Shown here: positions 6,910 through 25,198 of the stretch, one piece after another
Position numbering within the stretch: position 1 is the stretch's first letter
How the letters are laid out: the number at the start of each line of letters is the position of its first letter
Source of the DNA: Sideroxyarcus sp.
GTDB lineage: Bacteria > Pseudomonadota > Gammaproteobacteria > Burkholderiales > Gallionellaceae
Length of the DNA: 52,888 nucleotides
Direction of reading: 5' to 3'
Assembly: GCA_030652215.1 (NCBI GenBank)
Contig: JAUSBC010000095.1
Location: 1 to 52,888, forward strand
Notes under the pieces: generated by a model
The model's database searches: none
Told to the model about the DNA's origin: nothing
What the model saw: only the letters and a program-made list of their open reading frames with translations
Translations under genes and position numbers: made by a program

Positions 6910-6961
6910 ACTGCCTCCATCAATCTTCAATTGTCATTCTGGTCATACAGACCACATGCGT

Positions 6962-8662
6962 TCAGTCGAACCACCCCCATGCGCGCGACACACCGGTAAA
7001 GCGGGCAACCAGTCCGCTGGAATTGAAGCGCGAATCCAAACCTTGTGTTCCGGTCAGAAAGCTCACGTACGCCCCCGTGCGCGTCATCGACACGTAGTCC
7101 GTATAGCTGCCGCTGGTGCTGGACACAACGCGCGTTTCGCCGGTCACGAGATTGCGCATCACCACGTTGTAGCCAGTTGTACCCAGGTTGCTTGCCATCG
7201 TGTTGAACGCTATCCAGGTGGCGTCGTGAGACAGTGCCACACGCTCGCCCTGCCCGACCGGGCTATTGGCATTTCCCTGCACACCGGCGCTGCTGACACT
7301 GGCGCGCACCACGTTCAGACCCGCACCGGAGGTCTGCGTATCGACGACGAATACATCCTGGAAACCGCCTGTATCTCCTGTTACCACATTGGTCGATGTG
7401 GTCGAGTAGGCGACGTAACGGCCGTTGCCCGAGATCGTCGGCGATACGATGCGGCTGATGCTATCCCCCCCCTGATTGCGCTCACCGCCGCCGGCGGCGA
7501 GACTGACGCGCGATAGTCCGTCTGTCGTGTCGTACACAAAGATATCCCACAGCCCGTTCGCATCGCCGGCCACCAGATTGGATGCGTACGACCAGAACGC
7601 GATGCGTGTTCCGTCTTCCGAAATCGAAGGTCGCGAAGAACCGAAATTCCCCTCGCTGGACGAACCGTTCGCGTGGCTGACCAGCGTATTTGTATTGCCG
7701 GTCAGGTCGCGACGGATCACATTGGAATTAGTCGTGCCTGCTACAGTCCCTGCAAGGTTGCTGGCATATGTGCTGAAAGCCACAACCTTGCCGTCACCCG
7801 ACACGGCAGGCTCAAAGCTGGCCGCATTACCCTGTACTCCGGCCTCGTTTCTGCTTACCAGTTGCGCACCCGCACCCGGATCCTGTGCAGACCAGATATA
7901 CACATCTTTTACAGCCCCATTGGCATCGGTACCTGCCAGATTGGTGGCCTCCGACTCGAAAGCCACCTTCAAGCCGTCCGCCGAAATTGAGGGTGCCGTG
8001 CTGTTGCCATTGCCTTCGACTCCCGCTGCAGTCGCACTCACCAGTTTTGTCTCACCTGTCCACCTGTCGCGCCACAACACTTGGTAGTAACTGCCGCCGA
8101 CGCCCGTTGCAATACCCGGGGCGTAAGACACGAAAGCGACAAACCGTCCCTCGCCATACCCGTCGGCAGTACTCCCCACCGCGCCCGCAGCCCCGCCCAG
8201 CGCCGACGCCTGGTTATAGGTGCCGTAGCTCATTACGGAATCGTCGCTGCTACGACTGAGCAGGTCGTAGTTGTATTCGCAACCGATCTTGAGCGCAGTG
8301 CTGGTCACAGGCATCGTGCCCGTCGCCCCCTTGAAAACCGAGCAAGTCTGATTGGCGGGTGCCGTCAGCACACTAACCTGGTATGCGGCGCCACCAAGCA
8401 ACGTCGTTGCAAAAGTGAAGGTCTGCTCGTTGTAATCATCGCTGGTGGTGCCAAACGCAGGCACAGTTACATTCAAGTTGTCGCCACCGTTGTTCTGCAA
8501 AACCACTTGCGTGCCTACCGGACCGGCGATCGTTCCAACAAGCGAGGTTGCGACGCCGACACCAGTACTGTCTGTGGCACCCCCGCCTCCGCCGCAAGCG
8601 GAAAGCAGAACCGAGACCAGTGCGGCAGCGCCCGTTAGGCGTGCATGCATAAACTTGTTCAT
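6962..8662 (-). CDS. Lipoprotein with PD40/TolB-like beta-propeller
   Basis: Predicted exported lipoprotein of 566 residues and first gene of an operon. A GGGAG site precedes the ATG at 8662; the signal peptide ends in lipobox LSAC followed by a Gly run. Residues about 35-125 form the GTxVVLQNN...C module shared with two neighbouring lipoproteins. From about 130 there are at least six PD40-type repeats with cores such as SADGLKVAFES, SGDGKVVAFST and SEDGTRIAFWS, each followed by ASNLAGTD-like loops. This predicts a six- or seven-bladed propeller for protein or ligand binding. No enzymatic residues are evident. The palindromic operator lies 107 bases before the start codon. Function unknown. 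Confidence 0.83.
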   Translation of the reverse strand: MNKFMHARLTGAAALVSVLLSACGGGGGATDSTGVGVATSLVGTIAGPVGTQVVLQNNGGDNLNVTVPAFGTTSDDYNEQTFTFATTLLGGAAYQVSVLTAPANQTCSVFKGATGTMPVTSTALKIGCEYNYDLLSRSSDDSVMSYGTYNQASALGGAAGAVGSTADGYGEGRFVAFVSYAPGIATGVGGSYYQVLWRDRWTGETKLVSATAAGVEGNGNSTAPSISADGLKVAFESEATNLAGTDANGAVKDVYIWSAQDPGAGAQLVSRNEAGVQGNAASFEPAVSGDGKVVAFSTYASNLAGTVAGTTNSNVIRRDLTGNTNTLVSHANGSSSEGNFGSSRPSISEDGTRIAFWSYASNLVAGDANGLWDIFVYDTTDGLSRVSLAAGGGERNQGGDSISRIVSPTISGNGRYVAYSTTSTNVVTGDTGGFQDVFVVDTQTSGAGLNVVRASVSSAGVQGNANSPVGQGERVALSHDATWIAFNTMASNLGTTGYNVVMRNLVTGETRVVSSTSGSYTDYVSMTRTGAYVSFLTGTQGLDSRFNSSGLVARFTGVSRAWGWFD

Positions 8663-8764
8663 TTGTTTTCTCCCTCGTTCTCAAACATATTAATCATTGC
8701 TGCGAAAAGTGACGGTTTGTCCACGCTGCCGACGAATGGAATGTATGTGCTTTGACGCGCATTT

Positions 8765-8784
8765 CATATAGTCCATTTGGACTG
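8765..8784 (-). promoter_or_regulatory. Palindromic operator/promoter site, copy 1
   Basis: AGTCC-ATTT-GGACT (8770-8783) is an inverted repeat with 5-bp arms. On the minus strand it runs directly into TATATG, which could be a -10 element with no good -35, as expected of an activator-dependent promoter. It lies 107 bases before the start of the PD40 lipoprotein gene. Three near-identical copies lie at 15262, 18333 and 18366. The binding protein is not shown by sequence; the neighbouring LuxR-type regulator is the natural candidate. Confidence 0.7.
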
Positions 8785-8909
8785 GCGTATTGAAGTTGTT
8801 GATGGATAAAGTGATCACTGCATGGACCGGGCTCAAAAAACATACCCACCTTGCCTGGCTTTCACCTATTCCCTTCCAATCTGCCTGGTGACGAGTCGGA
8901 CAACATGAT

Positions 8910-9425
8910 TCAGGAACAAGGCGGCACAGTTTTCAGGCAGTTCTCCAGGCTATCGCTGCATTCAGCACCCAGCTTGGTCAATGTTTCGATCTCCAGTTGG
9001 CGGGCGAAGCTGACAGCATTCGCTTTGTCCTGGCGATCGCTTTCCGCTTCGCTCAATGCACCCAATAAGCCAATCACAACTACCTCAAGCACCGTTGCCG
9101 CCGCGAGCAACGCTGGAGCAAGCACCAGCCCTATGATCGGTATGGACAGTGCCGTGTACGCCGCTGCCAAGGCAATTGCCGCTGCCATAGCCGCGCTTTT
9201 TAGTTGCGTGGACAGATTGTCGACACGCGCCTGTGCGTTCCGGGCAGCGGTCTCGGCCACGCATCGGTCGGATCTTCGGTTGCGAAGCTCGACACACAAC
9301 CCACTGCAGTTTGTGTTGCCAGAGTCGGCGTTCAGAGTGATGGTGGGCGGGTTCTGACCTCGGGCAATCAATCTGCCAAAGAAAAAAACGACAATAGCAA
9401 CGACTACTCCGGCAAAAGCTTCCAT
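8910..9425 (-). CDS. Small membrane protein of unknown function
   Basis: I do not recognise a family. The product has 171 residues if it starts at 9425, where AGGAGG has normal spacing; the ATG at 9434 directly abuts that site. It has an N-terminal membrane segment (AFAGVVVAIVVFFFGRL), then a short soluble stretch with three cysteines (TNCSGLC, RC) and a coiled-coil-prone part. A long Ala/Leu/Ile-rich double membrane span follows (AAMAAAIALAAAYTAL and IPIIGLVLAPALLAA), and a C-terminal tail carries three more cysteines. The layout suggests a hairpin membrane protein with exposed cysteine-bearing domains. It is the last gene before operator copy 1 and may belong to the operon that starts at operator copy 2. 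Confidence 0.6.
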   Translation of the reverse strand: MEAFAGVVVAIVVFFFGRLIARGQNPPTITLNADSGNTNCSGLCVELRNRRSDRCVAETAARNAQARVDNLSTQLKSAAMAAAIALAAAYTALSIPIIGLVLAPALLAAATVLEVVVIGLLGALSEAESDRQDKANAVSFARQLEIETLTKLGAECSDSLENCLKTVPPCS

Positions 9426-9581
9426 GTTTTGCATCCTCCTGTTGTTAAGTGAAAATCCAACTTCGCGCCACCCCTACGTGTCGCCCGCGCATCTGTCCCG
9501 GTTATAGAGCTGTTTGGCGCAATATCCGAAGGCTATTGCGTAAAATGTTTGCTTACACATCCGGTGCATTACGGCATTTGC

Positions 9582-9674
9582 CTAATGCGTCTTACGGCCC
9601 TCCGCCGCAGCCCCCGACAAGCGCCACAAAAATACCAATACGGAAACACCGGCAAACCTGAATTTTTTCTTCAT
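9582..9674 (-). pseudogene. Frameshifted mini-lipoprotein remnant
   Basis: A GGGGAG site lies 5 bases before an ATG that opens a 30-codon frame starting MKKKFRFAGVSVLVFL, a convincing signal-peptide start. The in-frame continuation (WRLSGAAAEG) has no lipobox. The frame entered by adding one base after TTTTTG reads VALVGGCGGGP then stop, which is a lipobox plus the Gly-rich linker seen in all the neighbouring lipoproteins. I infer a lipoprotein gene shortened to its leader and then hit by a one-base deletion. It could instead be a real short peptide. It sits 58 bases after the YVTN lipoprotein stop, in the same direction. Confidence 0.35.
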
Positions 9675-9732
9675 GGAATTCTCCCCTGCAATTTTGCCGT
9701 TCGCTGCGACAACGATTTTTGTCGGTGACGGA

Positions 9733-12393
9733 TCATTGGATCGTTGCGGTGGTGGTGATAGAAATGGGGGCCTGCTCCGCAGGCACGGCCGAACCTGCAC
9801 CGCTGAGCGCACCCGAGCTGGCGTTGATGCGGTAGACCGAGATATCTTCCGAGACTAAATTGGTCACATAGGCGAACTGGCCCGAAGCATCCACGGCAAT
9901 GGAGCTGGGGTTGGTTCCCGCGCCCACATTCATACCCAAGTGGGTGAGCGCGCCGGTTGCGGCATCGATGCCCAGAACTCCCACATCATTTGATCCGCTG
10001 TTGGTCACGTAGGCGAATCGGCCATCGGGGCTGACCGCCGTAAAACTGGGCGTGTTGCCCCCCGTCCCGGATGCACTGATGCCGGTCAAGGCACCCGTGA
10101 CGGGGTGAATGTTGTAGGCCGCCAGGGTATGGTTGCCCGCAACCGTCAGGTAGGCAATCCTTCCCGTGGGATCGACCGTGATGGACTGGGGCAGAGTGCC
10201 TACTGCCAAAGCGTTACCGGCGGCAGCGCCATTCTGGTCAATCTCGGTCAATACCCCGGAGACCGGGTTTATGGTGTAGGCAGAAACGGTGTTGGAACCC
10301 AGGTTGACCAGATAAACAAAGCGGCCCGAGGGATCGACACTGACAGACCAGGGATCGCCGCCCGCATTCACGAAACCGACGCTGGTGAGCTCGCCAGTCG
10401 TGGCATCGATGGTGTACGCCGAGACATTGTTGGAGGCTTGGTTCGCCACATAAGCAAACCGGCCGGATGGATCGACCGTCACCGAGCGCGGATTACTCGC
10501 CATAAGCGCCGGATTGCCAGGATTGGTGAGTGCCCCGGTCGCAGCATCGATACGGTAGGACAATACGGTGATGATATCCGGGCTTTCAATTAGCAACTCT
10601 CTCGTTGCATAGGCGAACCTGCCGGTTGGGTCTGTCGCTACAGCGGTCAAGAGTGCCCCGCCGCTCTCGGAAGGCACGCGGGTCAGGGCACCCGTGGTGG
10701 GGTCGATACGGTAAGCAGCTGGATTGCTTTGAAGAGACGGGCCGTAATTCGCGGCGTAGGCAAACTTCGGCGTGTAGCTCACGGGTGTGGCACCCCGGGT
10801 CATGGCGATGGAAAAAGGTCCGACGCGACCGCTGACAGTACCGGCGCTGGTGAGCGCCCCGCTGCCTGCATCGATGTCGTAGACCGATACGGTGTTGGAG
10901 GTGCCGCTCGCCACATAAGCGAACTTGCCCGAGGGGTCAATGATGACGGAGCGTGGATTCATCCCCGTCGTTGTACCCGCAATGCTCGTCAGCGCGCCGC
11001 TGCTGACGTTGATGCTGTAGGCCGAGACACTGAAGGAATTGAGATTCGCCACATAAGCGAACCGGCCTGTGGGATCGACGCTGACGGACGTGGGACTGGT
11101 TCCGGTCGCCACGGCGGTGCCGACACTCGTGAGCGCGCCAGTGCTGGCGTTGATGGTGTAGGCCGAAACGGTATCGGAGCCGAGATTCGCCACATAGGCG
11201 AATTTTCCGGAGGGGTCGACGGTGACGGACTGAGGTATCGATTCAGTCGCAACCGTCGCGCCGACGCTGGTGAGCGCGCCAGTGGTTGCGTTGATGCTGT
11301 AGGCCGAGATGTTGTTGTCGTTGGCATTCGCCACGTAGGCGAACCTGCCTGAAGGATCGACGGTGACGGAGCGAGGATCCCTTCCCGCCGCCACGGCAGT
11401 GCCGGCAGCAGCGCCATTCTGGTCAACCTCGGTCAAGGCGCCGGTGCTGGCGTCGATTGTGTAGGCCGAGACGTTGAACGATGCTTCATTCGCCACGTAA
11501 GCAAACTTGCCCGAGGGATCGACCGTGACGGCATAAGGCCACGTCCCCGCTGGCACTGTGCCCACGCCGGTGAGTGCACCGGAGCTGACGTTGATGTTGT
11601 AGGCCGAGATCGTGTTGTCACCCCAGTTCGCGACGTACGCAAACCTGCCCGAGGGGTCTACGGTGACCGAGTGGGGGCTTGCGCCCGTCATCGCGTAGCC
11701 GTTGTGCCTTAACTGCCCGGTAGCGGCATTGACCGTGTAAATGGATACGGTGTTGTCGCTGCTATTCGCCACATAGGCAAAGCGCGGCGAGGGAGTAACG
11801 CAGTTCACCACAACGCCGCCGATATTTGCACCCGTCACTGTCCCGCTGCCGTTTGTGACCGTGCAGGTTTGGGAAAGCAGCGTGGGCTGGGTTTTGACGG
11901 TGACGTTGTAGTTGGCACCGCTCGCCACACTGGCGGCAAAGGTGAATGCGCCGTTGGCGCTGATAGCGAGATCGTCGCCGCTGTTGTCCTGAAGTACCAG
12001 ACCCGTACCTGCCAGTCCGCTGACGCTGCCGCTTACGGTATAAGCATTGGTCGAGCATGTGACCGCAACTCCGGTGACATTCGCCGAAGCTGTGCCGCTA
12101 CCGCTGTTTACCGTGCAGGTCTGAACCGGATTGCCGGGCTGGGTCTTGACGGTGACCGCGTATGCGATGACCGGAGTGACAAAGGTGAAGCTGCCGTCTG
12201 CGCTGGCAGCAAGGTCGTCGGCCGCATTGTTCTGCAAAACAAGACCGGTGCCGGTCAAACCGCTTAGCATGCCGCCGATGGTGTAGCCGGTTTGCGCGCC
12301 ACTTTCCCCTCCGCTGCCGCCGCCGCACGCGGCAAGAAACGAAGCCAGCAGCACTGCTGAAGCATGAATGATTCCGATATTGTCGAAACGCAT
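9733..12393 (-). CDS. Lipoprotein with two YVTN (lactonase-like) seven-bladed propellers
   Basis: Predicted exported lipoprotein of 886 residues. The start at 12393 (MRFDNIG) has GGGAGG 6 bases upstream, unlike the ATG at 12444. Lipobox LAAC is followed by two copies of the about 75-residue module opening YTIGGMLSGLTGTGLVLQ. Then come 14 repeats with the pattern FAYVAN-x-NTVSAYTI-x-TGALTSVG...VDPSG. A linker (TRGATPVSYTP) falls after repeat 7, so 14 blades make two seven-bladed propellers. YVTN repeats occur in surface-layer proteins and in 6-phosphogluconolactonase-like folds; no lactonase active site can be claimed here. The gene starts 80 bases after the 895-residue lipoprotein gene and is probably co-transcribed with it. 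Confidence 0.85.
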   Translation of the reverse strand: MRFDNIGIIHASAVLLASFLAACGGGSGGESGAQTGYTIGGMLSGLTGTGLVLQNNAADDLAASADGSFTFVTPVIAYAVTVKTQPGNPVQTCTVNSGSGTASANVTGVAVTCSTNAYTVSGSVSGLAGTGLVLQDNSGDDLAISANGAFTFAASVASGANYNVTVKTQPTLLSQTCTVTNGSGTVTGANIGGVVVNCVTPSPRFAYVANSSDNTVSIYTVNAATGQLRHNGYAMTGASPHSVTVDPSGRFAYVANWGDNTISAYNINVSSGALTGVGTVPAGTWPYAVTVDPSGKFAYVANEASFNVSAYTIDASTGALTEVDQNGAAAGTAVAAGRDPRSVTVDPSGRFAYVANANDNNISAYSINATTGALTSVGATVATESIPQSVTVDPSGKFAYVANLGSDTVSAYTINASTGALTSVGTAVATGTSPTSVSVDPTGRFAYVANLNSFSVSAYSINVSSGALTSIAGTTTGMNPRSVIIDPSGKFAYVASGTSNTVSVYDIDAGSGALTSAGTVSGRVGPFSIAMTRGATPVSYTPKFAYAANYGPSLQSNPAAYRIDPTTGALTRVPSESGGALLTAVATDPTGRFAYATRELLIESPDIITVLSYRIDAATGALTNPGNPALMASNPRSVTVDPSGRFAYVANQASNNVSAYTIDATTGELTSVGFVNAGGDPWSVSVDPSGRFVYLVNLGSNTVSAYTINPVSGVLTEIDQNGAAAGNALAVGTLPQSITVDPTGRIAYLTVAGNHTLAAYNIHPVTGALTGISASGTGGNTPSFTAVSPDGRFAYVTNSGSNDVGVLGIDAATGALTHLGMNVGAGTNPSSIAVDASGQFAYVTNLVSEDISVYRINASSGALSGAGSAVPAEQAPISITTTATIQ

Positions 12394-12473
12394 GATTGTC
12401 CTCCCTTGATCTGCTGTTCGCGATTTCTCATGCCCCGCGCGCATTCGGCATCGCGCTGTTCAACCCGGGACAC

Positions 12474-15161
12474 TCATTCGAATATCTTGCCCAGACCGTT
12501 GCCTGCCCCCGGACTCAGATCGGACACCCGCACCGTTCCAGCGGTCGTTCCGTCGCTCTTCCACAGTTCGTTGCCGTCGGTACCGTCGTTTGCGATGAAG
12601 CAAAGCGTGCCTGCAACTGCGGTCAGGTAGACGGGATCGCTGTAACCGGCGCCCGGATTGATATCCTTTACCGGCACCGTACCTGCCGCAGTACCGTCGC
12701 TTTTCCATAGCTCGCGTCCGTTGCCGTCTATGGCCGAAAAGAAAAGCGTGCCGCCGACTGCGGTGAAATTGGACGCAAAGCTATGACCGGCCCCCGCGAC
12801 AATATCCTTGACCTGCACCGTGCCTGCTGCCGTGCCGTCGCTCTTCCACAATTCCCTTCCGCTGGCTCCATCATCTGCCGAAAAGTAGAACGCGCTGCCT
12901 ATGCCGGTGAAACCGGATGGATAACTGTCGCCCGCACCTGCATTGATATCGGCAACCTGCACCGTGCCCGCTTCCGTGCCGTCGCTCTTCCACAACTCAC
13001 GCCCGCTTGAGCCGTCCGTAGCTACAAAATAGAGCGTGCCGCCGACAACGGTCAGCGAGTCCGGATAGCTGTAGCCCGCACCCGCATCGATGATCTTGAC
13101 CAGCACAGTGCCCGCCTCGGTGCCGTCGCTTTTCCACAGCTCGTAGCCGTTGGTGACATCATTGGCATTGAAGTAGAGCGTGTCGCCGACGGCGGCGAGA
13201 AAGTCCGGGTCGCTGCCGCCCGCGCCGACATTGATGTCCTTGATCGGCAGCGTGCCCGCCTCCGTGCCGTCGCTCTTCCAAAGTTCGTTGCCGCTGCTTC
13301 CATCGCTGGCGGTGAAATAGAGTGTGCTGCCGACGGCGGTCAGTTTGCCGAGGGAACTGGCTCCATTGCCCGGATAGATGTCCTTGACCAGCACCGTGCC
13401 CGCCACCGTACCGTCGCTCTTCCACAGTTCGCGTCCGTGGGTGTCATCGTAGGCTTCGAAAAAGAACACGGTGCCGACGACGGTGAGTTGCGAAACCATG
13501 CTGCCGCCTGCCGGGTTGGTTTCCTTGAGGACATAGGTACCGGCCGCGGTTCCGTCGCTGCGCCACAATTTCTCGACACCGCTCGACCCGTCGTTGGCGC
13601 TGAAATAGCTGACCCCATTGAGTGTAACCAGTGAGTTCACGTTCGAACCGATGCTGACCGTCCCGATATCGGCAACCATTCCGGAACCCGCCTCGGTACC
13701 GTCGCTCTTCCACAACTCGCGGCCATGAACGCCATCGTAGGCGGCAAAGTACGCATAACCGCCGACGGCGAGCATGCTCGCCGGCCCGCTGTCGCCGGAA
13801 CCGGGATTGATGTCGCGCACCCGGGTGGTACCCGCCCCGGTTCCGTCGCTCTGCCACAACTCGTAGCCGTTGCTGCCTTCGCTTGCCTGAAAGAACAGCG
13901 TGCTGCCGACGGCAATCAAGTGTGAAGGATTGCCGCTGCTCGGGCCCGCGTTGATGTCCACGACCTGCACGGTGCCGACTGCCGTGCCGTCGCTCTTCCA
14001 CAACTCGGTGCCGTGGGTGGCGTCGTTGGCTTGAAAGAAGAGCGTACCACCCGCATTTGTCATATACATGGCGGAGCTGTCACCCGGACCGGCATTGATA
14101 TCCTTGACCAGCAGCGTGCCCGCCTCCGTGCCGTCGCTCTTCCACAACTCATTGCCGTTGCTGCCGTCGTTGGCGGCGAAATAGAGCGTGCCGCCGACGA
14201 CAGTTAAACCGCCCAGCCCGCTGCCGAACGTTCCAGGGTAAATATCCTTGACCAGCACCGTACCGGGCGTTGTGCCGTCGCTCTTCCACAACTCCCAGCC
14301 GTTGCTTGCATCGGTGCCGTAGAAGTAGAGCGTGCCGCCGAGTTCCGTGAGAACGCCGCTGATGTCTATACTCTTGACCAGCACCGTCCCTGCTGTCGTA
14401 CCGTCGCTCCGCCATAACCCGCCGGCACTGCCGTCCCAGGCCGTGAAGTAGAGCGTGCTGCCGATGACGGTGAAACCGAACGGGTCGCTGCTGCCGGAAA
14501 CCGTGTTGATGTCCTTGACCAGCACGGTGCCGGCCTCCGTGCCGTCGCTCTTCCACAACTCCTCGCCGCTGAGGCCGTCGCTCGCCGTGAAAAAAATCGT
14601 ACTGCCGATTGCGGTCAGTTGGGCATCGGGGCTGAAGCTCCCTCTGTCGGCATCGTTCTTGATATCCTTGACCATCACGGTGCCCGCACCGGTGCCGTCG
14701 CTCTTCCACAACTCCAGTCCGTGAACGCCGTCCTCGGCCAGGAAGTACAGCACAGTACCGACGGCGGTCAGCGAATTGGGCATGCTGTCTCCCGTGCCCG
14801 GGTTGATGTCCTTCACCAGCGTGGTACCCGCAGCCGAGCCGTCCGTCTTCCACAGTTCCACACCCGAGACCCCGTTGCTCGCGGCAAAATAGGTTACCCC
14901 GCCCATCACGGCGAGGTTGTGCGGGTCGGCGTTGCTGTTGGTGTTGATGTCCTTCACCAGCGTGGTACCGGCAGCCGTGCCGTCGGTACGGAACAGTTCC
15001 AACCCGGTCGTGCCGTTGTCGGCGCTCAGCAGAAACGGCGGAAGGACGGGCTCAATCGTATCCGCGGTGCCTCCTCCGCCCCCGCCCCCGCCGCAAGCGG
15101 CAAGCAATAGAGCCGCCAGGAACGCTGAGCCATGCATGAGTTTGACGCGGTTGAATTTCAT
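12474..15161 (-). CDS. Giant-repeat lipoprotein with 18 'WKSDGTxAGT' repeats
   Basis: Predicted exported lipoprotein of 895 residues. The start at 15161 (MKFNRVKLMHG) has GGGGGAG upstream and opens a signal peptide with lipobox LAAC and a run of eight glycines; the longer frame to 15296 has no signal. Nearly all the mature protein is 18 repeats of about 45-50 residues with the core ELWKSDGTEAGTVLVKDI, followed by LTAVGxTLYFxAxDGxxG. The 'ELWKSDGT' repeat is known from large bacterial secreted proteins and probably builds beta-propellers or a beta-solenoid; its ligand is unknown. Repeats differ enough at DNA level to be old. It is the first gene of an operon and has the palindromic operator 105 bases before its start. 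Confidence 0.85.
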   Translation of the reverse strand: MKFNRVKLMHGSAFLAALLLAACGGGGGGGGTADTIEPVLPPFLLSADNGTTGLELFRTDGTAAGTTLVKDINTNSNADPHNLAVMGGVTYFAASNGVSGVELWKTDGSAAGTTLVKDINPGTGDSMPNSLTAVGTVLYFLAEDGVHGLELWKSDGTGAGTVMVKDIKNDADRGSFSPDAQLTAIGSTIFFTASDGLSGEELWKSDGTEAGTVLVKDINTVSGSSDPFGFTVIGSTLYFTAWDGSAGGLWRSDGTTAGTVLVKSIDISGVLTELGGTLYFYGTDASNGWELWKSDGTTPGTVLVKDIYPGTFGSGLGGLTVVGGTLYFAANDGSNGNELWKSDGTEAGTLLVKDINAGPGDSSAMYMTNAGGTLFFQANDATHGTELWKSDGTAVGTVQVVDINAGPSSGNPSHLIAVGSTLFFQASEGSNGYELWQSDGTGAGTTRVRDINPGSGDSGPASMLAVGGYAYFAAYDGVHGRELWKSDGTEAGSGMVADIGTVSIGSNVNSLVTLNGVSYFSANDGSSGVEKLWRSDGTAAGTYVLKETNPAGGSMVSQLTVVGTVFFFEAYDDTHGRELWKSDGTVAGTVLVKDIYPGNGASSLGKLTAVGSTLYFTASDGSSGNELWKSDGTEAGTLPIKDINVGAGGSDPDFLAAVGDTLYFNANDVTNGYELWKSDGTEAGTVLVKIIDAGAGYSYPDSLTVVGGTLYFVATDGSSGRELWKSDGTEAGTVQVADINAGAGDSYPSGFTGIGSAFYFSADDGASGRELWKSDGTAAGTVQVKDIVAGAGHSFASNFTAVGGTLFFSAIDGNGRELWKSDGTAAGTVPVKDINPGAGYSDPVYLTAVAGTLCFIANDGTDGNELWKSDGTTAGTVRVSDLSPGAGNGLGKIFE

Positions 15162-15261
15162 TTTATTTCTCCCCCAAACGGATTCTTGTTGTTCATCCGG
15201 TACCGCGACACAGTCGGGTCGCTTACCCTTGGTGCGAATGTAGGCCGCAATGCGCGTATTA

Positions 15262-15281
15262 GATATAGTCCATTTGGACTG
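15262..15281 (-). promoter_or_regulatory. Palindromic operator/promoter site, copy 2
   Basis: AGTCC-ATTT-GGACT at 15267-15280, running on the minus strand into TATATC. It lies 105 bases before the 'WKSDGT' lipoprotein start, almost the same distance as copy 1 from its gene, while the sequence around it has diverged. Confidence 0.7.
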
Positions 15282-15327
15282 ATTGAACGAAAACACCGCC
15301 TGCCTTGCTTCCTGTTTGTTTGCAGCA

Positions 15328-15714
15328 CTAATGCGCGCTCACCCTGGATCGCGAATTCAACCGGAACAGCACCCGCAGGCGCGACTCGAACTCGCTCGGA
15401 ACCACTGGCTGCACAAGGTAATCGTCCGCACCCGCCTCAAGACAGGCGATTTTTTCATCCAGCGAGTTGCGCACGGAGATCATCAGGATAGGCGTTGACT
15501 TGCATCCCGCTTGCCGCAACTGGCGGCACAACTTAAGCCCATCCGTTTGCGGCAACTTCACATCGAGCACAATCGCGTCATATTGACCGGCCAGCGCGGG
15601 ATGCCTGCTCGAAATACCGCATCCCACCGAGTCCACAACATGTCCTTTCGATTCCAGAAAAACGGGCAAGCCCGAGTCTGTATCCGGTTTGTCTTCAATG
15701 ATGAGTACATGCAT
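15328..15714 (-). CDS. Stand-alone, atypical response-regulator receiver domain
   Basis: A 128-residue receiver domain with no output domain. The phospho-acceptor is D51 in LDVKLPQTDG, the hydroxyl residue is S80 (LMIS), and the acidic pocket is E7/D8 followed by K9. The near-invariant lysine of the family is Gln (Q102, in DDYLVQP), so phosphorylation-driven switching may be altered. The chain stops where the linker to an OmpR-type DNA-binding domain would begin (VLFRLNSRSRVSAH), so it may be a truncated OmpR-family regulator. It starts 3 bases after the stop of the ZU5-like lipoprotein gene, so the two are surely co-transcribed. It could act as a phosphate sink or adaptor for the nearby hybrid kinases; that is inference. 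Confidence 0.85.
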   Translation of the reverse strand: MHVLIIEDKPDTDSGLPVFLESKGHVVDSVGCGISSRHPALAGQYDAIVLDVKLPQTDGLKLCRQLRQAGCKSTPILMISVRNSLDEKIACLEAGADDYLVQPVVPSEFESRLRVLFRLNSRSRVSAH

Positions 15715-15717
15715 AAA

Positions 15718-18249
15718 TCACTTGAACACGTTGCCCCAGATATTCGCCCCGGAAGTCCCGGTGTGGTTCCACACCGCCAAGGCATTGCCATTGCCATCGA
15801 CAGCAATTTGGGGAGTGGATGAAGAGCCTCCCGCAGCAGTGCTGTCTATCAACGTGGCACCGCTCCAGCCCGTGCCGGCCACGTAGCGGTTAGCCCAGAT
15901 GTGGTAGGACTGGTTCCATACGGCCATGGCGTTGCCGCCTGCATCGATGGCGATCTGGGCCGAGCCGCCGCTGGTGTACACGCTCAAGTCATCGATCCGC
16001 ACTGCGGTGCCCCCAACACCCGCCACATAGCTGCGGGCCCACACACTGGTGACATCGCCTGAATCGATCTCCGTCCACACCACGATAGCCTTGTCGCTGC
16101 CGTTTATGGCGATGGAACTCCGCTCCGCAAAATCAGCGCTGTTCTCAACCAATGTGGCCGAGCCCCAATTGCCGGCCGAGTAACGGTTTGAATAGATGCT
16201 GTTAGTCGTGCCGTCATGCTGCTCCCACACAGCCATCGCATTGCCGGCAGCATCGGAGGCGATTTGTGGATACCCTGCATCGCCATCAACAGCCTCAATC
16301 AGCGTCGCTGTCCCCCAGCCGGTGCCCGCCACATAACGGTTGGCCCAGATGTCGTAGTGCACGCCCCACTGCGTCCACACCACCATGGCATTGCCACCGG
16401 CATCGAAGGCGATTTGAGGCGTATCGGCAGACCCCGCATTGGTTTCAATCAATTGTGGAGATTCCCAAGTGCTGGTGCCGGCTGCATAGCGTCTGGCCTC
16501 AATATCGTAAGCACCGCCGTTCCAGCTTTGCCACACCGCCATGGCGTTGCCGCCGGTATCAATGGCAATTTGAGGATTGGCGCCATTGGCCGTGAGTTGT
16601 GTCGCGGTGCCCCAACTTGAATTTGCCGCTGTGTAGCGCGCCGCCCAGGTCTCGGACCCATCCGGGTGAAAACCTGCGAACGCAACGATGGCGTCACCGT
16701 TGGCGTCAAAGGCAATCTGGGGGACTCGATAATCGAGCGTGGTGTCAGTCGTTTGAATTTGTGCGGCATTGCCCCAGCCCGAGCCCGGTTCGTAACGGCT
16801 GGTCCATATCTTGAATTTGCCGCCGCTGACAGCGGGCTGAGACCAGACCGCAAATGCGTTGCCATTGGCATCAAAGGCGACTTGCGACTCGAAGGCATCG
16901 CCCGCATCGAGTGTTTCCAGCAGGGCCGCGCCTTGCCACGCCTTCGGCGCGCTGCCGGCAACACAACTCACCGCCACATTGGAAACATCCGCCAGCGCCG
17001 TGCCGCTTTCATTTTGCAGGGCGCAGAATTGGCCTGAAGGTTGAGTGTGTACGCTGACGCTGTAAGGCGCATTGTCTGCAATAGCCGAGGCGAAAGTGAA
17101 GGCGCCGTCGGCCGTCACGGGCAGGTTGTCGCCGCCGTTGTTCTGCAATACCAGGCCGGTGCCGGTGAGGCCGCTGACCGTGCCGCCGACGGTGTAAAAG
17201 ACAGTAGGCGCTGGAATATTGCCTTCCACAATCATGTGGTCCCCCACATAACTGCTTCGATAGTTGCTGTAGTCCCAGCCCGTCACGGTACTATAAGACC
17301 TGGTCACACCCGGGCAGTCGTAGTTGACCACCACCGAAAAGAGGTTCTTGCCGACGTAATTGATCTGATAGTAGAACAGAAAGTCGAACGTGGCTGTGCC
17401 ATTCAGATAGTGTGCATCCGTCGTTATCGTTGGACTTTTTGTCTCTATGATCTGCGGCGCGCCCCACATTCCTGCGCTGCTCCCTTGGTACGGAAAACGT
17501 CGCAGCGTGACCGATACATTGGTGCAATTCCCGGGTAATTTGAAAGTGGTCTTGAATTGCAGATTGGCGGCTTGGTCGACCCGGTAACTTCCTGCGTCAC
17601 CGCTAATCCCATAATAATCGCCCGGTGAAGTCTGCACCAATGCTTGGGGTGGGGTGGCAGTCACACGCGCATAGCTGGATGAATGCGCGCACCAATAAGG
17701 ATCGTTGTGCATGCTGACGGGCACCCCACAAGCCGTTCCTAATAGTAAATTAGAGAAACTGTTGCGCTGCCATTCTGCAAAACCGTTGACAACCTGTGCG
17801 TCCAGAAGCTTCCAGTCTTCACCAGCGCTTGCCATGAAAACCAACGGGGTCGTGGCGCCGCTTGGCAAAGGGGCACGGACAGTGACAGGGCTATTGAACG
17901 TCAGACCGTGTGGTGTAAGTTCGTAGATATACCCTGCCGCCGGATAGGCCTCCGGCACGGCAGGCGCACCCGCCGAACTACGCGCAATGGTGATCGTGGT
18001 CGGCTGATCCAGCGCACCCGCCGGTATCACCACGCGCACACCGTCCGGACCAACGAGCGTGCCGCCCTGGGTGTCAATCGTGGCACTCGCCACTCCACCG
18101 CCGGAACCGGAACTGCCGCCACACGCCGCCAGCAGCGAAACAAATACAGCTGTAACAACAATCGCGGTGCAACGATGCAACTGGCGCGGCAGGCGCTGAC
18201 GCAGCGCAGTCAGCGCAGGCGGCTTCACAAGATTGCGGGTGGTGTGCAT
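15718..18249 (-). CDS. Lipoprotein with ZU5-like domain and eight 'NAMAVW' propeller repeats
   Basis: Predicted exported lipoprotein of 843 residues. The start at 18249 (MHTTRN) has AGAGG upstream. A basic N-terminus and a hydrophobic segment end in lipobox LLAAC. Residues about 75-160 read GGTLVGPDGVRVVIPAGAL...ELTPHGLTFNSPVTV, the signature of a ZU5-like domain. A middle region of unknown fold follows, then one copy of the YTVGGTVSGLTGTGLVLQ module. The last 350 residues hold eight repeats with the core PQIAFDAGGNAMAVW-x-IWANRYVAGTGWGTATLIE, a likely propeller. Two palindromic operator copies lie 84-136 bases before the start codon. It forms a two-gene operon with the receiver-domain gene. 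Ligand unknown. Confidence 0.84.
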   Translation of the reverse strand: MHTTRNLVKPPALTALRQRLPRQLHRCTAIVVTAVFVSLLAACGGSSGSGGGVASATIDTQGGTLVGPDGVRVVIPAGALDQPTTITIARSSAGAPAVPEAYPAAGYIYELTPHGLTFNSPVTVRAPLPSGATTPLVFMASAGEDWKLLDAQVVNGFAEWQRNSFSNLLLGTACGVPVSMHNDPYWCAHSSSYARVTATPPQALVQTSPGDYYGISGDAGSYRVDQAANLQFKTTFKLPGNCTNVSVTLRRFPYQGSSAGMWGAPQIIETKSPTITTDAHYLNGTATFDFLFYYQINYVGKNLFSVVVNYDCPGVTRSYSTVTGWDYSNYRSSYVGDHMIVEGNIPAPTVFYTVGGTVSGLTGTGLVLQNNGGDNLPVTADGAFTFASAIADNAPYSVSVHTQPSGQFCALQNESGTALADVSNVAVSCVAGSAPKAWQGAALLETLDAGDAFESQVAFDANGNAFAVWSQPAVSGGKFKIWTSRYEPGSGWGNAAQIQTTDTTLDYRVPQIAFDANGDAIVAFAGFHPDGSETWAARYTAANSSWGTATQLTANGANPQIAIDTGGNAMAVWQSWNGGAYDIEARRYAAGTSTWESPQLIETNAGSADTPQIAFDAGGNAMVVWTQWGVHYDIWANRYVAGTGWGTATLIEAVDGDAGYPQIASDAAGNAMAVWEQHDGTTNSIYSNRYSAGNWGSATLVENSADFAERSSIAINGSDKAIVVWTEIDSGDVTSVWARSYVAGVGGTAVRIDDLSVYTSGGSAQIAIDAGGNAMAVWNQSYHIWANRYVAGTGWSGATLIDSTAAGGSSSTPQIAVDGNGNALAVWNHTGTSGANIWGNVFK

Positions 18250-18332
18250 GGTGTGCCTCTTTTCTCGGATAGTTGTGTTGCACGGCGAGCCGTTGGTCAG
18301 TGGGGGCAATGTAGGCGCCGGACAAACAATTT

Positions 18333-18352
18333 CATATAGTCTGTTTGGACTG
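18333..18352. promoter_or_regulatory. Palindromic operator/promoter site, copy 3
   Basis: AGTCT-GTTT-GGACT at 18338-18351, the most divergent of the four copies but with both arms recognisable. It is followed on the minus strand by TATATG, 88 bases before the ZU5-like lipoprotein start. Copy 4 lies exactly 33 bases away, about three helical turns, so two dimers could bind on the same DNA face. Confidence 0.65.
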
Positions 18353-18365
18353 ATTCGGCACTATT

Positions 18366-18385
18366 CGTATAGTCCATTTGGACTA
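18366..18385. promoter_or_regulatory. Palindromic operator/promoter site, copy 4, next to the regulator gene
   Basis: AGTCC-ATTT-GGACT at 18371-18384, running on the minus strand into TATACG. It lies 52 bases before the LuxR-type regulator start on the plus strand. A TATAAA at 18392-18397 is a possible -10 for the regulator gene, which would put the palindrome between -35 and -10 in that direction and allow autoregulation. Confidence 0.65.
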
Positions 18386-18436
18386 GTTGCGTATAAACGC
18401 TTGCGAAATGGGTGCGGTGCGGGTTAACTTCGCAGT

Positions 18437-19054
18437 ATGACAACGACAAATATTTTGCTGATCGACGACCACGCGATGTTCCGTTCCGGCCTGCGCATGG
18501 TGCTGAATGCGCGCATGGCCGATACGGAAATTATCGAGGCGGGTTCGTTAACCGAGGCTACCCAATGTGCGCCCGAGAAAATCGGCGTAATCCTGCTGGA
18601 TATCAATCTGCCCGGCCTGAACGGCCTGGACGGCATCGCGCTGCTCAAGCGCAAATGGCCCCATGTTCCGGTGGTTGTGCTCTCCTCCCAGGACGGACCG
18701 GAAACCGTGCGCGATGCGCTTGCGCGCGGTGCGGTGCGCTTTATCTCCAAGGCGGATACGGCTGACAGAATCGTCGCTTTGCTCAACCGCGTAATACGCG
18801 GCGAATACGATGCTCCGGAAAACCTGCAGGGTGTCGGTGACGAGGTTTTTCCCGTCCCGCAGCACTTGACCCCGCGTCAGTGCGAGGTGCTGGACCTCGT
18901 CTGCCAGGGCATGTCCAACAAATTGATCGCGCGGCAGTTGTCGCTTTCGGAAAACACCGTGCGCGGACATGTGCAGGCGATACTGGGGTTCCTGGAGGTG
19001 TCGAGCCGTTCGGAAGCTGCTTTTGCGGCACGGCGCAGGGGCTTGGTCGGTTAA
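18437..19054 (+). CDS. LuxR/NarL-family response regulator
   Basis: DNA-binding response regulator of 205 residues. The N-terminal receiver has the acidic pair D10/D11, phospho-acceptor D55 (LLDINLPGLNG), S83/S84 and K105 (FISKAD), so all switch residues are present. The C-terminal LuxR-type helix-turn-helix reads LTPRQCEVLDLVCQGMSNK, continuing through ENTVRGHV. It is the only protein with a DNA-binding output domain in this block. It is divergent from the lipoprotein operon, with the two palindromes 52-104 bases upstream, and is followed by three hybrid kinases in the same direction. It is the obvious cognate regulator for those kinases and the likely reader of the palindromes; both links are inference from context. 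Confidence 0.93.
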   Translation: MTTTNILLIDDHAMFRSGLRMVLNARMADTEIIEAGSLTEATQCAPEKIGVILLDINLPGLNGLDGIALLKRKWPHVPVVVLSSQDGPETVRDALARGAVRFISKADTADRIVALLNRVIRGEYDAPENLQGVGDEVFPVPQHLTPRQCEVLDLVCQGMSNKLIARQLSLSENTVRGHVQAILGFLEVSSRSEAAFAARRRGLVG

Positions 19055-19227
19055 TTCACGGCGAAAAACGCGACCGCCCGAACGGCATTCGTGCCGGGAT
19101 AGTGAGGCGGCTCCTGGCGTTGCAGAAGTGATGGCACTTGAATTTCCAAAATCCGGATCGGGGATTGCGGGAACACCTTGCTGATGTTAGCTTGCCCGGT
19201 ACAAACAACCTTGGTACATCCTGCGCC

Positions 19228-21012
19228 ATGATTACCCTCTTCTCATCCCATGGCGAAAACCTGTCTGCCGACGAAAAGCGCGTGACCGTCGAAGCCATCC
19301 ACCAGATGGCGCTCGTACTTCGTGCCGCCTGGATCGCGTTGCCCGTGCTTGCGGTGCTGGTAGTGATCGGCATGTGGTGGCTAACGGACCACGCCAAGTT
19401 GCTGGGCTGGTTGCTGTGCGCGATCACGATGCCGGCAATGCGTTATTGGCTGCTGCGCAGACATTTCCTGACCCCGCCGCCCGATTACAAGTCCGCAGTA
19501 CGCTGGGCACGTCAATTGACGCTGGTTGCGCTGCTGGACGGTTTTGTCTGGGGCGGCGCATATATTCTGTTTTTTACTCCCGATTCCGTGGCCGAACAGG
19601 TGTTGCTGCTCAGCATGCTGGTAACAATCGTAGCCGGATCGATTTTTGTGTCGTCCTTCTGGCCGCCCACGCTCATCGCGTTTTCGACACCGGCCTTTAC
19701 GCTCGCGACCATACCGTTCCTGCAGCAGGGCACAACCGCCTCGTTCGTCATGGCGGGTGCACTGATATTCATGCTCATGATTCTCTCCCAGATGCTGCGT
19801 GCCGCGCACCGTTTGTCGCGCGAAGCCATCGCTTTGCGTTTCGAGAACCTGGGCCTGGTTGAAGGCCTGCGTGAACAAAAGCAGGTGGCAGACGATGCCA
19901 ACATGGCCAAGTCCAAATTCCTCGCCGCAGCCAGCCACGATTTGCGCCAGCCCATCCATGCGCAGGGCCTGTTTCTGGAAGTTCTTTCGCGCACCGAGCA
20001 GACCCCGCACCAGCAGGAACTTGTCGCCAGTGCGCGCGCCGCTTCGGAAGCAAGTGGCGAGCTGCTTAATGCGCTGCTCGATTTCTCGCGCATCGAGGCG
20101 GGCGTGATCGAGCCGAATCTGCAACCATTCCGTCTGCAGCCCCTGCTCAACAAAATCGAAAATGAACTCGCGCCGCAAGCCGACACGAAAGACATCGTGT
20201 ATCGCTCGCGCGAAACGCAGCTGGTGGTGCGTACCGACCCCATGCTGCTGGAACGTATCCTCAGAAATCTGGTATCGAATGCAATTCGCTATACCGAACG
20301 CGGCGGTGTGCTGGTGGCATGCCGCCGGCACGGCGCAAAAGCCGTGCTGGAAGTCTGGGACACGGGCATCGGCATCGCACCGGAACACCAGGCGGAAGTG
20401 TTCCGCGAGTTCCACCAACTGGGCAATCCGGAACGCAACCGCAACAAGGGCCTCGGGCTGGGGCTGGCCATTGCGGAAGGACTGGCGCGCACACTGGGGC
20501 ATGAATTGACGCTGTATTCCGAGCCGCAGCGCGGCAGCGTGTTCCGCCTGACGCTGGATATCGACGAAACGATCCCGGCCGTGCAGGCCGCAATGTCGCA
20601 GAGCAAATCGCGCCTGCTGAATGCGCGCCTGCTGGTCATCGACGACGACGAGATCGTGCGCTCGGGCATGTTGCACTTGTTGCGCGACTGGGGTTGCGAA
20701 TGCGAGGCGGCGGAGTCCATTGAAGAGGCGCTCGCGCTGGCGCGCTTGCACAGGCCCGATGTGGTCATCAGCGATTACCGGCTGCGCGAGCAGCGCACCG
20801 GCGTGGAAGCCATCGCGGCGTTGCGCGCGATGCTGGGCCAGTCGCTGCCCGCCCTGCTCATCACCGGCGACACGGCGCCGCAGCGTTTGCGCGAAGCGCA
20901 GGCCAGCGGCATTCCGTTGCTGCACAAGCCCGTTGCGCCCGGCAAGCTGTATCGCAGGCTGGTGGAACTGCAGCAGGAAGGGGCTTGCCCCGTGCCCGTG
21001 CCCGGCATATAA
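19228..21012 (+). CDS. Membrane hybrid histidine kinase, paralogue 1 of 3
   Basis: Hybrid sensor kinase of 594 residues. The start at 19228 is preferred over the TTG at 19138 because it puts the phospho-His at residue 237, exactly as in the two following paralogues. About six membrane spans fill residues 25-190, with no large periplasmic domain. HisKA holds the H-box SHDLRQPIHAQG (H237). HATPase_c has NLVSNAIRYTERGG, DTGIGIAPEHQ and GLGLGLAI. A C-terminal receiver has VIDDDE, D516 (VVISDYRL), a TGD threonine and a KP lysine. No Hpt domain is present. The sensor part is clearly different from paralogues 2 and 3 while the catalytic part is nearly the same. The gene starts 173 bases after the LuxR-type regulator. 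Confidence 0.93.
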   Translation: MITLFSSHGENLSADEKRVTVEAIHQMALVLRAAWIALPVLAVLVVIGMWWLTDHAKLLGWLLCAITMPAMRYWLLRRHFLTPPPDYKSAVRWARQLTLVALLDGFVWGGAYILFFTPDSVAEQVLLLSMLVTIVAGSIFVSSFWPPTLIAFSTPAFTLATIPFLQQGTTASFVMAGALIFMLMILSQMLRAAHRLSREAIALRFENLGLVEGLREQKQVADDANMAKSKFLAAASHDLRQPIHAQGLFLEVLSRTEQTPHQQELVASARAASEASGELLNALLDFSRIEAGVIEPNLQPFRLQPLLNKIENELAPQADTKDIVYRSRETQLVVRTDPMLLERILRNLVSNAIRYTERGGVLVACRRHGAKAVLEVWDTGIGIAPEHQAEVFREFHQLGNPERNRNKGLGLGLAIAEGLARTLGHELTLYSEPQRGSVFRLTLDIDETIPAVQAAMSQSKSRLLNARLLVIDDDEIVRSGMLHLLRDWGCECEAAESIEEALALARLHRPDVVISDYRLREQRTGVEAIAALRAMLGQSLPALLITGDTAPQRLREAQASGIPLLHKPVAPGKLYRRLVELQQEGACPVPVPGI

Positions 21013-21065
21013 CCTGCATCGGGCACAACCGACAATATCGCGATGGAACAAGGAAATCGAAATAT

Positions 21066-22826: not shown

Positions 22827-22880
22827 CGTGTGTACACGGCATTGGTTACCGTGACAGCAACATCCGGATAAGAGGACGCC

Positions 22881-24652: not shown

Positions 24653-25198
24653 TCAACTGAAATGCCGTTCGCGGATATGCTTCAGCAAACCGTTCGCCGC
24701 GTCTTCCACCATGTCCAGCACTTGTTCGAAACCTTCCGGCCCGCCGTTATAGGGATCGGGCACTTCGTACTCCGTATGCCGCTCGGCAAAGTCCAGAAAC
24801 AATCCGAGGTGACTTTGCGCGTTGCCGGGACGCAGGCGTTCGAGCATGACCAGATTCATGTTGTCCATGGCCAGCACATAATCGAAGCGCAAGAAGTCGC
24901 CCGCCTCCACTTGTCGACCGCGCAGATTGCTCATGTCGTAACCGCGCTGTTTTGCAGCGCGCTGTGTGCGCGCATCCGGCGCATCGCCGACGTGGTAATC
25001 GTGAGTGCCTGCCGAATCGATCTGGATTCGGCCCGCCAGACCGGCCTGTTCCACGCAATGACGGAACACCGCTTCTGCAGTGGGAGATCTGCATATATTG
25101 CCCATGCACACGAACAGCACGCTGACTTTGCGCATGCTCTTCATCGCGTTTTCGGATTGCGAAGCAGACTTTTTCAATGCGGCGGCTATTTTATGCAT
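24653..25198 (-). CDS. Low-molecular-weight protein-tyrosine phosphatase
   Basis: Cytoplasmic phosphatase of 181 residues. The P-loop is CMGNICRSPT (nucleophile C31, R37) and the general acid is D148 in DPYNGG, both canonical. Family members dephosphorylate protein tyrosines, often BY-kinases of exopolysaccharide export, or arginine phosphates. The start at 25198 (MHKIAAALKK) overlaps the end of the upstream hybrid kinase gene by 8 bases, suggesting translational coupling. It gives an extension of about 20 residues before the usual family start at the MRKVSVLF methionine, so an internal start at 25135-25144 is possible. No tyrosine kinase gene is nearby; the coupled partner is a histidine kinase. 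Confidence 0.93.
   Translation of the reverse strand: MHKIAAALKKSASQSENAMKSMRKVSVLFVCMGNICRSPTAEAVFRHCVEQAGLAGRIQIDSAGTHDYHVGDAPDARTQRAAKQRGYDMSNLRGRQVEAGDFLRFDYVLAMDNMNLVMLERLRPGNAQSHLGLFLDFAERHTEYEVPDPYNGGPEGFEQVLDMVEDAANGLLKHIRERHFS

Follow-up and report, generated by a model that had tools for sequence, protein, structure and literature searches.

A palindrome as the putative operator of an adjacent NarL/FixJ-type regulator and of three lipoprotein operons in Sideroxyarcus sp.

The regulator and its closest described systems

The heptamer recognized by NarL is TACYYMT, and the site of mycobacterial DosR is a palindrome containing GGACT and AGTCC with oppositely oriented half-sites (GGGACT-N2-AGTCCC). 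The DosR regulon is unrelated to the one described here. According to PMC7419079, NarL activates Escherichia coli ogt from 7-2-7 sites at -44.5 and -77.5. The DNA that we analyzed, a stretch of 52,888 nucleotides (the window), includes the following regulatory genes:

18437..19054, plus strand: NarL/FixJ-type response regulator (receiver and GerE/LuxR HTH, Pfam above cut-offs; recognition helix TVRGHVQ, in which Gly177 is the residue called X)
19138..21012, plus strand: hybrid histidine kinase (HisKA, HATPase_c, receiver; four TM-like stretches)
20985-22826 and 22881-24641, plus strand (within 20985..24641): two further hybrid histidine kinases

The receiver domain of the regulator (PF00072, 73.8 bits, cut-off 30.2) has Asp55 within LLDIN, and the alignment of its C-terminal LuxR/GerE HTH (PF00196, 59.5 bits, cut-off 23.5) spans the recognition helix of NarL. 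The NarL HTH domains are the nearest solved HTH structures, and structure 3c3w of DosR/DevR, another NarL-family regulator, was matched as well. The equivalent of Gly177 is presumably NarL Val189. Membership in the NarL equivalog was rejected (NF007935, 108.2 bits, cut-off 250). In NCBIfam the regulator scored best against ErdR and its kinase against NahK/ErcS, and these memberships were rejected too (NF041830, 116.6 bits, cut-off 390; NF041832, 358.8 bits, cut-off 400). The locus differs from Pseudomonas ErdR with its NahK/ErcS-type hybrid kinases in that Pfam scans of 17 window proteins revealed no alcohol dehydrogenase. It differs from NarL in its heptamer (TAGTCCA), in its targets, which are exported proteins instead of nitrate-response genes, and in having a hybrid kinase rather than NarX/NarQ. 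The kinase at 19138..21012 is the probable partner of the regulator, which it would phosphorylate; a hybrid kinase follows the regulator gene in all eight relatives picked for this test.

We propose, with a probability of about 85%, that a palindrome found four times in the window is the operator of this regulator, which would activate three lipoprotein operons and control its own gene, and that relatives use the same circuit with retuned specificity for exported surface proteins. Once phosphorylated, the regulator would read the NarL-like 7-2-7 site TAGTCCA-NN-TGGACTA as a dimer through its LuxR-type HTH, as the geometry of the site and the covariation described below suggest.

Palindrome copies and promoter geometry

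The exact palindrome AGTCCATTTGGACT is found at 8770, 15267 and 18371 (copies 1, 2 and 3), and AGTCTGTTTGGACT, which has one mismatch, at 18338 (copy 4). These are the positions listed in an earlier note on this DNA, and its statement that the window holds no further copy is true at up to one mismatch, where the scan returned the four copies and nothing else. The number at two mismatches, 17 found versus 15 expected, is at chance level. For exact copies the expectation is 0.01, and three were reached in 0 of 100 shuffles. The palindromes are real and not due to chance. Identity among the copies was 20-33% in the upstream 60 bases and 20-36% from +32 to +90 downstream, compared to 26% for random 60-mers. 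The surroundings are, as had been claimed, otherwise different; the exceptions are a wing (+1 to +8) and the -10 region (+23 to +31), the latter in copies 1, 2 and 4. This background-level identity rules out that the window sites arose from a copied repeat. At locus L016 in a relative, a second lipoprotein gene that lies apart from the regulator is indeed preceded by a duplicate of a tandem operator module, but taken together the explanations by copying or chance have a negligible probability. The genes downstream of the palindromes are:

6962..8662, minus strand: PD40 beta-propeller lipoprotein, first gene of operon 1
5347..6930, minus strand: Big_2/CBM96 lipoprotein, probable second gene of operon 1
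12474..15161, minus strand: lipoprotein with 18 ELWxxDGT repeats, first gene of operon 2
9733..12393, minus strand: beta-propeller (lactonase-like) lipoprotein, second gene of operon 2
15718..18249, minus strand: lipoprotein with lipobox SLLAACGG and a ZU5 domain, first gene of operon 3
15328..15714, minus strand: receiver-only response regulator (domain match), second gene of operon 3

The candidate operators and predicted promoter elements are arranged as follows:

8770..8783, minus strand: operator copy 1, reading AGTCCAAATGGACT on this strand; predicted centre -43.5 in the promoter of gene 6962-8662
8740..8745, minus strand: -10 TACATT of operon 1, 24 bp past copy 1, with a weak -35-like ATGAAA at 8762-8767; the spacing is the same in related loci
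15267..15280, minus strand: operator copy 2; predicted centre -43.5 in the promoter of gene 12474-15161
15237..15242, minus strand: -10 TACATT of operon 2, 24 bp past copy 2
18338..18351, minus strand: operator copy 4, reading AGTCCAAACAGACT on this strand; predicted centre -43.5 in the promoter of gene 15718-18249
18308..18313, minus strand: -10 TACATT of operon 3, 24 bp past copy 4, with a weak -35-like ATGAAA at 18330-18335
18371..18384, no strand assigned: operator copy 3, 33 bp from copy 4; at about -76.5 (second upstream site) for the lipoprotein promoter and about -59 (nearest site) for the regulator promoter
18401..18429, plus strand: regulator promoter, with -35-like TTGCGA (18401-18406), a 17-bp spacer and -10-like TTAACT (18424-18429); predicted start at or beside the ATG

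Copies 1 and 2 lie 107 and 105 bases from the start codons (8662 and 15161), and copies 3 and 4 are offset by 33 bases, as the earlier note had correctly stated. What it overlooked is that TACATT lies exactly 24 bp past the palindrome in all three operons. In the geometry that we read from it, the TATA beside the palindrome would be the -10 and the palindrome would overlap the -35/-10 spacer. The abutting motif itself is there, since on the minus strand every one of the four copies runs into ATAT or ATAC (as ATATG, ATATC or ATACG). However, in a test that left the spacing free, 21 AGTCYN4RGACTAT sites from the window and 55 regulator loci included nine with TACANT within offsets 10-37, and the offset was 24 in 9/9. 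In addition, ATATGAAA flanks the operator on both sides in locus L033 and therefore resembles a wing or a -35 element. The fixed spacing of TACATT rules out TATA as the -10, and the geometry built on it is highly improbable.

With TACATT 24 bp past the palindrome as the -10, the operator would be centred at -43.5 and would thus lie at an activator position and not within the core promoter. This is predicted to be the NarL-type activator position, as judged from predicted transcription starts. Compared to E. coli NarL and ogt, as excerpts of PMC7419079 present them, the receiver with GerE HTH, the 16-bp inverted repeat of two heptamers around a 2-bp centre, the weak -35 and the 33 bp between copies 3 and 4 are alike, the proximal -43.5 of this pair resting on a predicted start. 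Copies 1 and 2 are here single sites near -43.5. A dimer bound there, just upstream of the weak -35, would recruit RNA polymerase to the three lipoprotein operons, and a second dimer 33 bp upstream may strengthen the third promoter as at ogt. Repressor sites usually overlap the -10 or the start site. The regulator could instead bind the palindrome and repress, blocking RNA polymerase at the promoters of the lipoprotein operons as long as no signal releases it; NarL-type regulators can do so, for example at frdA (excerpts of PMC4549865), and the palindrome abuts the -35 region. We consider this unlikely, as the weak -35 (ATGAAA), the operator centred at -43.5 and the tandem pair 33 bp apart make up the layout of activated NarL promoters.

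The regulator gene apparently has its own promoter and is leaderless, and copy 3, near -59, would mediate autoregulation of this promoter. Similar promoters, TTGCNN-17-TTAAMT, were recognized by eye in many regulator orthologues.

Occurrence in the genome and in relatives

The assembly from which the window comes (3.64 Mb, 89.85% complete) has five exact palindromes, three of them in the window. Promoter model R1, built from 15 rows that include the three window sites, returned the three promoters and copy 3 alone up to E = 10. The earlier note had named scatter across the genome as a reason for doubt; by this model, which is partly built on window sites, the promoter motif is confined to the target genes, and the bare palindrome occurs at two other places. 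One of them, C81:27051 (L005), was rejected as a target because on either strand there is no AT after the palindrome and no -10 at 24 bp. The other, C58:27567 (L004), lies before an outer-membrane-like gene and is a possible fourth target. This gene was present in 6/20 genomes searched, and in the five upstream regions read the palindrome was intact in L206 (the same genome) and L207, degenerate in L208 and absent in L209 and L211. A palindrome scan of the assembly with a reversed-pattern control gave 169 versus 39, a result that base composition makes uninformative.

Among 158 genomes of the family, the 44-bp promoter occurred 14 times without mismatches, in seven genomes, and the regulator (at least 57% identity) was found in 17, including all seven with the exact promoter (Fisher p ~5e-8). 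Another factor, such as an unlinked regulator, might read the palindrome and control both the lipoproteins and the response regulator: allowing up to one mismatch, the promoter was found in 17 genomes, five of which do not have the regulator. Each of these five, however, has a single 1-mismatch site, compared to nine control matches across the same 158 genomes. Together with the 7/7 exact-promoter genomes that carry the regulator and with an outer operator base that tracks both the recognition-helix residue and the genome-wide site type, this makes such a factor very unlikely.

Exported proteins are encoded downstream of 30/47 sites versus 128/500 control points; the remaining 17/47 genes do not look exported by our own rule. 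The ESPR label of target proteins comes from our own pattern, and the LEPR, TpsB and hemerythrin labels are tentative. The regulon had been described as one of lipoproteins, which fits the operons in the window; the targets in the wider regulon are exported proteins of more than one kind, namely lipoproteins, proteins resembling autotransporters and other secreted proteins. The same circuit would control these in the relatives.

In Gallionellaceae, Collimonas, Variovorax and others the palindrome precedes the regulator gene, with an exact core in 35/59 regulator upstream regions versus 12/1180 shuffled ones. Its conservation in orthologous intergenic regions extends to many relatives but not to all. 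Lack of such conservation was, beside genome-wide scatter, the other computable ground for refutation named in the earlier note, and its reading withstood both. No core at up to one mismatch was present in 23/66 regions, namely 18/59 (X = C in 6, K in 7, I in 1, V in 3 and G in 1) and 5/7 further ones (all X = Gly). The palindrome is absent upstream of K- and C-type regulators, and in one genus six regulators with X = Gly lack a fitting palindrome upstream. Autoregulation is therefore not universal.

Recognition-helix residue and outer operator base

The left outer base of the core matched residue X in 35/35 exact cores and in 41/41 when 1-mismatch cores were included: Gly, Val or Asn goes with A, Arg with G and Trp with C (locus L139 repeats L037). 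The three promoter types were found only where the regulator that was read has the matching X (A-type 26 rows, G-type 14, C-type 5; 26 regulator-bearing genomes searched, of which G829 duplicates G150). In genome G150, which has Arg- and Gly-type regulators together, a G-type site immediately precedes the Arg-type gene, and the contig that carries the Gly-type regulator holds A-type sites. In the misfit, L163 (X = Gly), the core has one mismatch and its outer base is T, which is the wrong one; 1-mismatch cores arise in 161/1180 shuffled regions. On the tree, residue class and outer base each switch only three times, and the independent-pairs tests give one pair each on well-supported branches (two at most), so the covariation cannot be called significant free of phylogeny.

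These results support the view that one regulator residue and one base pair of the palindrome changed together in relatives, and this is the strongest evidence that the regulator reads the site. The earlier idea of a dedicated, autoregulated regulon read by the neighbouring regulator gained from this covariation and from the co-occurrence with the regulator, both of which point to the adjacent regulator as the reader; binding is putative and the sign of regulation is one that we infer. The specificity would then have been retuned through coordinated changes, one in a residue of the recognition helix and the other in the operator's outer base pair. We lean slightly towards a broader reading, in which the single helix position of Gly177 determines which base stands at heptamer position 2 (A for small residues or Asn, G for Arg, C for Trp), and swaps there, matched by swaps in the operators, turned a single ancestral circuit for surface proteins into three regulons orthogonal to one another, of which two coexist in G150. 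If this is true, LuxR-type HTH domains would have a natural recognition code.

The literature searched names no code of this kind for the LuxR/NarL family and holds no description of this regulon, and the excerpts of PMC5829831 give no helix-residue information useful here. When five 14-mers and the spelled-out pattern were searched in the literature, supplements aside, the sole match was a coral mitochondrial genome with the C-type 14-mer. For cell-surface proteins of environmental Betaproteobacteria, the proposed circuit names a regulator, an operator, a promoter geometry and a list of targets in concrete terms. With three operator types, each paired with a matching helix residue, it also makes recognition of DNA in the LuxR/NarL family testable by residue and base swaps. 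Two variants were seen among the upstream regions: the L138 regulator, with X = I, has an A-type site upstream, and five X = Gly regulators have an asymmetric site with A on the left and C on the right.

Palindromes and promoters of the lipoprotein operons

The four palindromes placed by the earlier note at 8770, 15267, 18371 and 18338 (copies 1 to 4, respectively) were confirmed. Three exact copies occur in the window, compared to 0.01 expected, and three or more were seen in 0 of 100 shuffles. Scanning the whole 3.64-Mb assembly identified five exact palindromes, three of them within the lipoprotein-regulator cluster. The description of the surrounding sequence as otherwise different also held, since the flanks show background-level identity, with two exceptions: a ATATGAAA-like wing of 8 bases and, in copies 1, 2 and 4 only, the -10 region. 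A further exact palindrome (AGTCCGTTTGGACT) of the same genome, at C58:27567 (L004), is followed by TTGACG and then by a gene for an outer-membrane-like protein. This palindrome is intact in G136 (L207), is half degenerate in the G041 copy (L208) and is missing from loci L209 and L211.

The minus strand of all three operons has the order palindrome, 24 bp, TACATT. The 44-base full pattern, with up to three mismatches, matches only these three promoters in the window (0.05 expected). When TACANT was sought at offsets 10-37 from the AGTCYN4RGACTAT sites of the window and 55 regulator loci (n=21), it was found in 9 of 21 sites, at offset 24 in 9 of 9, and was absent from these offsets in 12 of 21. 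The promoter elements are the following.

after the operators of copies 1 and 4: weak -35-like ATGAAA
18401-18406, + strand: -35-like TTGCGA of the regulator promoter
18424-18429, + strand: -10-like TTAACT of the regulator promoter, after a 17-bp spacer and seven bases before the regulator ATG

If transcription starts 7 bases 3′ of the hexamer, the operators of the three operons are each predicted to be centred at -43.5. Taken with its flanks, the palindrome reads TAGTCCA-NN-TGGACTA, in agreement with the 7-2-7 form. In E. coli, according to PMC7419079, NarL activates ogt through sites at -44.5 and -77.5, separated by 33 bp, and activates yeaR through a single 7-2-7 site that immediately precedes the -35 element. 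Copies 3 and 4 have the same 33-bp spacing as the ogt sites. At locus L016, some 3.4 kb away from the start of the regulator, a lipoprotein gene is preceded by a second tandem operator pair, and thus the pair serves the lipoprotein promoter, not only the regulator. The tandem operator/promoter module of this locus is duplicated nearly unchanged (L016:2505-2551 and 5902-5948), each copy preceding a different lipoprotein gene, as though promoters travel as cassettes.

The regulator is transcribed opposite to the lipoprotein operons, and copy 3 lies near -59 relative to its promoter. The regulator messenger is probably leaderless, because inspection by eye of many orthologues revealed a similar promoter arrangement directly before the ATG. 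In the window (18424-18437) and, by eye, in many orthologue upstream regions, a TTTAAT/TTAACT -10 precedes the ATG by about 7-8 bases, and a Shine-Dalgarno is lacking. At locus L038 a second copy of the regulator's operator region lies some 800 bases farther upstream (the two are at -857 and -51 relative to the regulator start), and the -857 copy precedes a gene whose product is apparently secreted.

The regulator and its co-occurrence with the promoter

The regulator consists of a receiver and a GerE HTH domain. Among solved structures, the HTH domains of NarL are the closest, and the helix TVRGHVQ aligns with NarL TVKVHVK; the protein scores under the NCBIfam cut-offs for NarL, ErdR and MctR. 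A hybrid histidine kinase is encoded directly 3′ of it, an arrangement shared by 8 of 8 relatives selected for this comparison, and two additional hybrid kinases follow. The three kinase genes are in tandem (19138-24641), and a fourth is located nearby on the opposite strand (25191-26975).

Conservation upstream of the regulator in related genomes, which the earlier note named as a check, was partial: the A-type palindrome (outer base A), at one mismatch or fewer and within 120 bases of the regulator, was found in 16 of the 55 loci scanned out of 78. Among 158 family genomes, the full promoter has 29 matches in 17 genomes at one mismatch or fewer (9 for the reversed control) and 14 in 7 genomes at zero mismatches. 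Regulator orthologues (at least 57% identity; next group at most 43%) are present in 17 of the 158. They occur in 7 of 7 exact-promoter genomes (Fisher p ~5e-8) and in 12 of the 17 with up to one mismatch (p ~1e-10), values to be read in the knowledge that the tests treat related genomes as independent.

The operator, its spacing, the -10, the co-occurrence and the covariation described below are demonstrated at the level of sequence. In the mechanism that we propose, the adjacent hybrid kinase would phosphorylate the regulator, a dimer of which would bind the operator and activate transcription through contact with RNA polymerase; the regulator would also control its own gene. Because of the operator position, a bound regulator is predicted to be very likely an activator rather than a repressor. 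The parts are already known in kind (NarL-type regulator, 7-2-7 operator, ogt-like promoter), and neither this operator nor the regulon was found described in the literature searched, a search with most subscription journals outside it.

Covariation of a helix residue and the outer operator base

The most interesting part, and one directly testable, is the covariation between a helix residue (Gly177 in this regulator) and the outer base of the operator. Other subclades have GGTCC-N4-GGACC (G-type) or CGTCC-N4-GGACG (C-type). For each regulator, the 135 bases upstream were searched for the best GTCYNNNNRGAC core; this covered 59 distinct regions, obtained after 82 sources were read and duplicates dropped. 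Cores were exact in 35 regions, had one mismatch in 6, and were absent at that threshold from 18; 1180 shuffled regions contained 12 exact cores and 161 with one mismatch or fewer. Left outer base A accompanies Gly, Ser, Val or Asn in 27 of 27 cases (22 with T and 5 with C on the right side), G accompanies Arg in 11 of 11 (10 with C and 1 with T on the right), and C accompanies Trp in 3 of 3 (2 with G and 1 with A on the right); the weak L051 core of the Trp group may be a chance match. The outer base fits the residue in all 35 exact cores. Of seven further regulators, five with Gly have no core upstream, an A-type site precedes the one with Ile, and L163 (Gly) has a one-mismatch core with a misfitting outer base T, probably by chance. 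Both traits change three times on a quickly built tree in which the helix columns were retained, and independent-pairs tests gave one pair each on well-supported branches and two at most. Therefore, the agreement is strong in kind and is not statistically independent of descent. Seven K-type regulators lack the palindrome (L034, L035, L039, L040, L045, L046 and L049). Upstream of several K-type regulators an asymmetric TATAACGC-N4-GCACCATA, seen by eye, occupies the corresponding position (about -44.5) and may represent a fourth operator type.

Three promoter patterns of one geometry (operator, 24 bp, TANNNT, with AT demanded after the operator in A and G, and G in C) were compared in 26 genomes, all picked for carrying the regulator and typed by the regulator read. 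The A pattern gave 26 rows, confined to genomes with Gly or Asn and lacking in G128 and G152 (Gly); the G pattern gave 14, confined to Arg genomes and lacking in G835 (Arg); the C pattern gave 5, confined to the three Trp genomes. Reversed controls gave 0, 0 and 6, respectively. Genome G829 appears to be G150 over again, with the same coordinates. G150, typed by its Gly and Arg paralogues with a third left out, has both site types: the G-type site immediately before the Arg-type gene, and the A-type sites on the same contig as the Gly-type gene. Many rows are the regulator's own upstream site viewed on the opposite strand, and to that extent the matrix restates the covariation evidence; the remaining sites (e.g., L177, L186, L187, L190, L202, L203 and L205) are new evidence.

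Genes downstream of the operators

A simple signal-peptide rule was applied to the gene after each distinct site in the loci examined. Exported proteins follow 30 of 47 sites, 17 of them lipoproteins: 9 of 13 G-type, 5 of 5 C-type and 16 of 29 A-type, 5 of these 29 being from genomes outside the 26, including G120, which lacks the regulator. Random intergenic points of 39 regulator loci (L016-L054) gave 128 of 500, with 42 lipoproteins (p ~2e-7 for exported proteins and ~9e-7 for lipoproteins). By eye, the L178 membrane protein, L191 and one of the L188 pair are doubtful positives, and L116 (contig end), L179 and L194 were missed; we take the L179 target to be TpsB-like and that of L194 adhesin-like. 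Other downstream genes encode hemerythrin-like proteins, second regulators and unknowns.

The three operons of the window encode five lipoproteins with CGG lipoboxes, of the types PD40, Big_2/CBM96, lactonase-like propeller, ELWxxDGT repeats and ZU5. Several operon lipoproteins share a sequence block (GLTGTGLVLQNN...DDL; window 9733-12393 and 15718-18249, L114, L186), apparently an unnamed surface domain.
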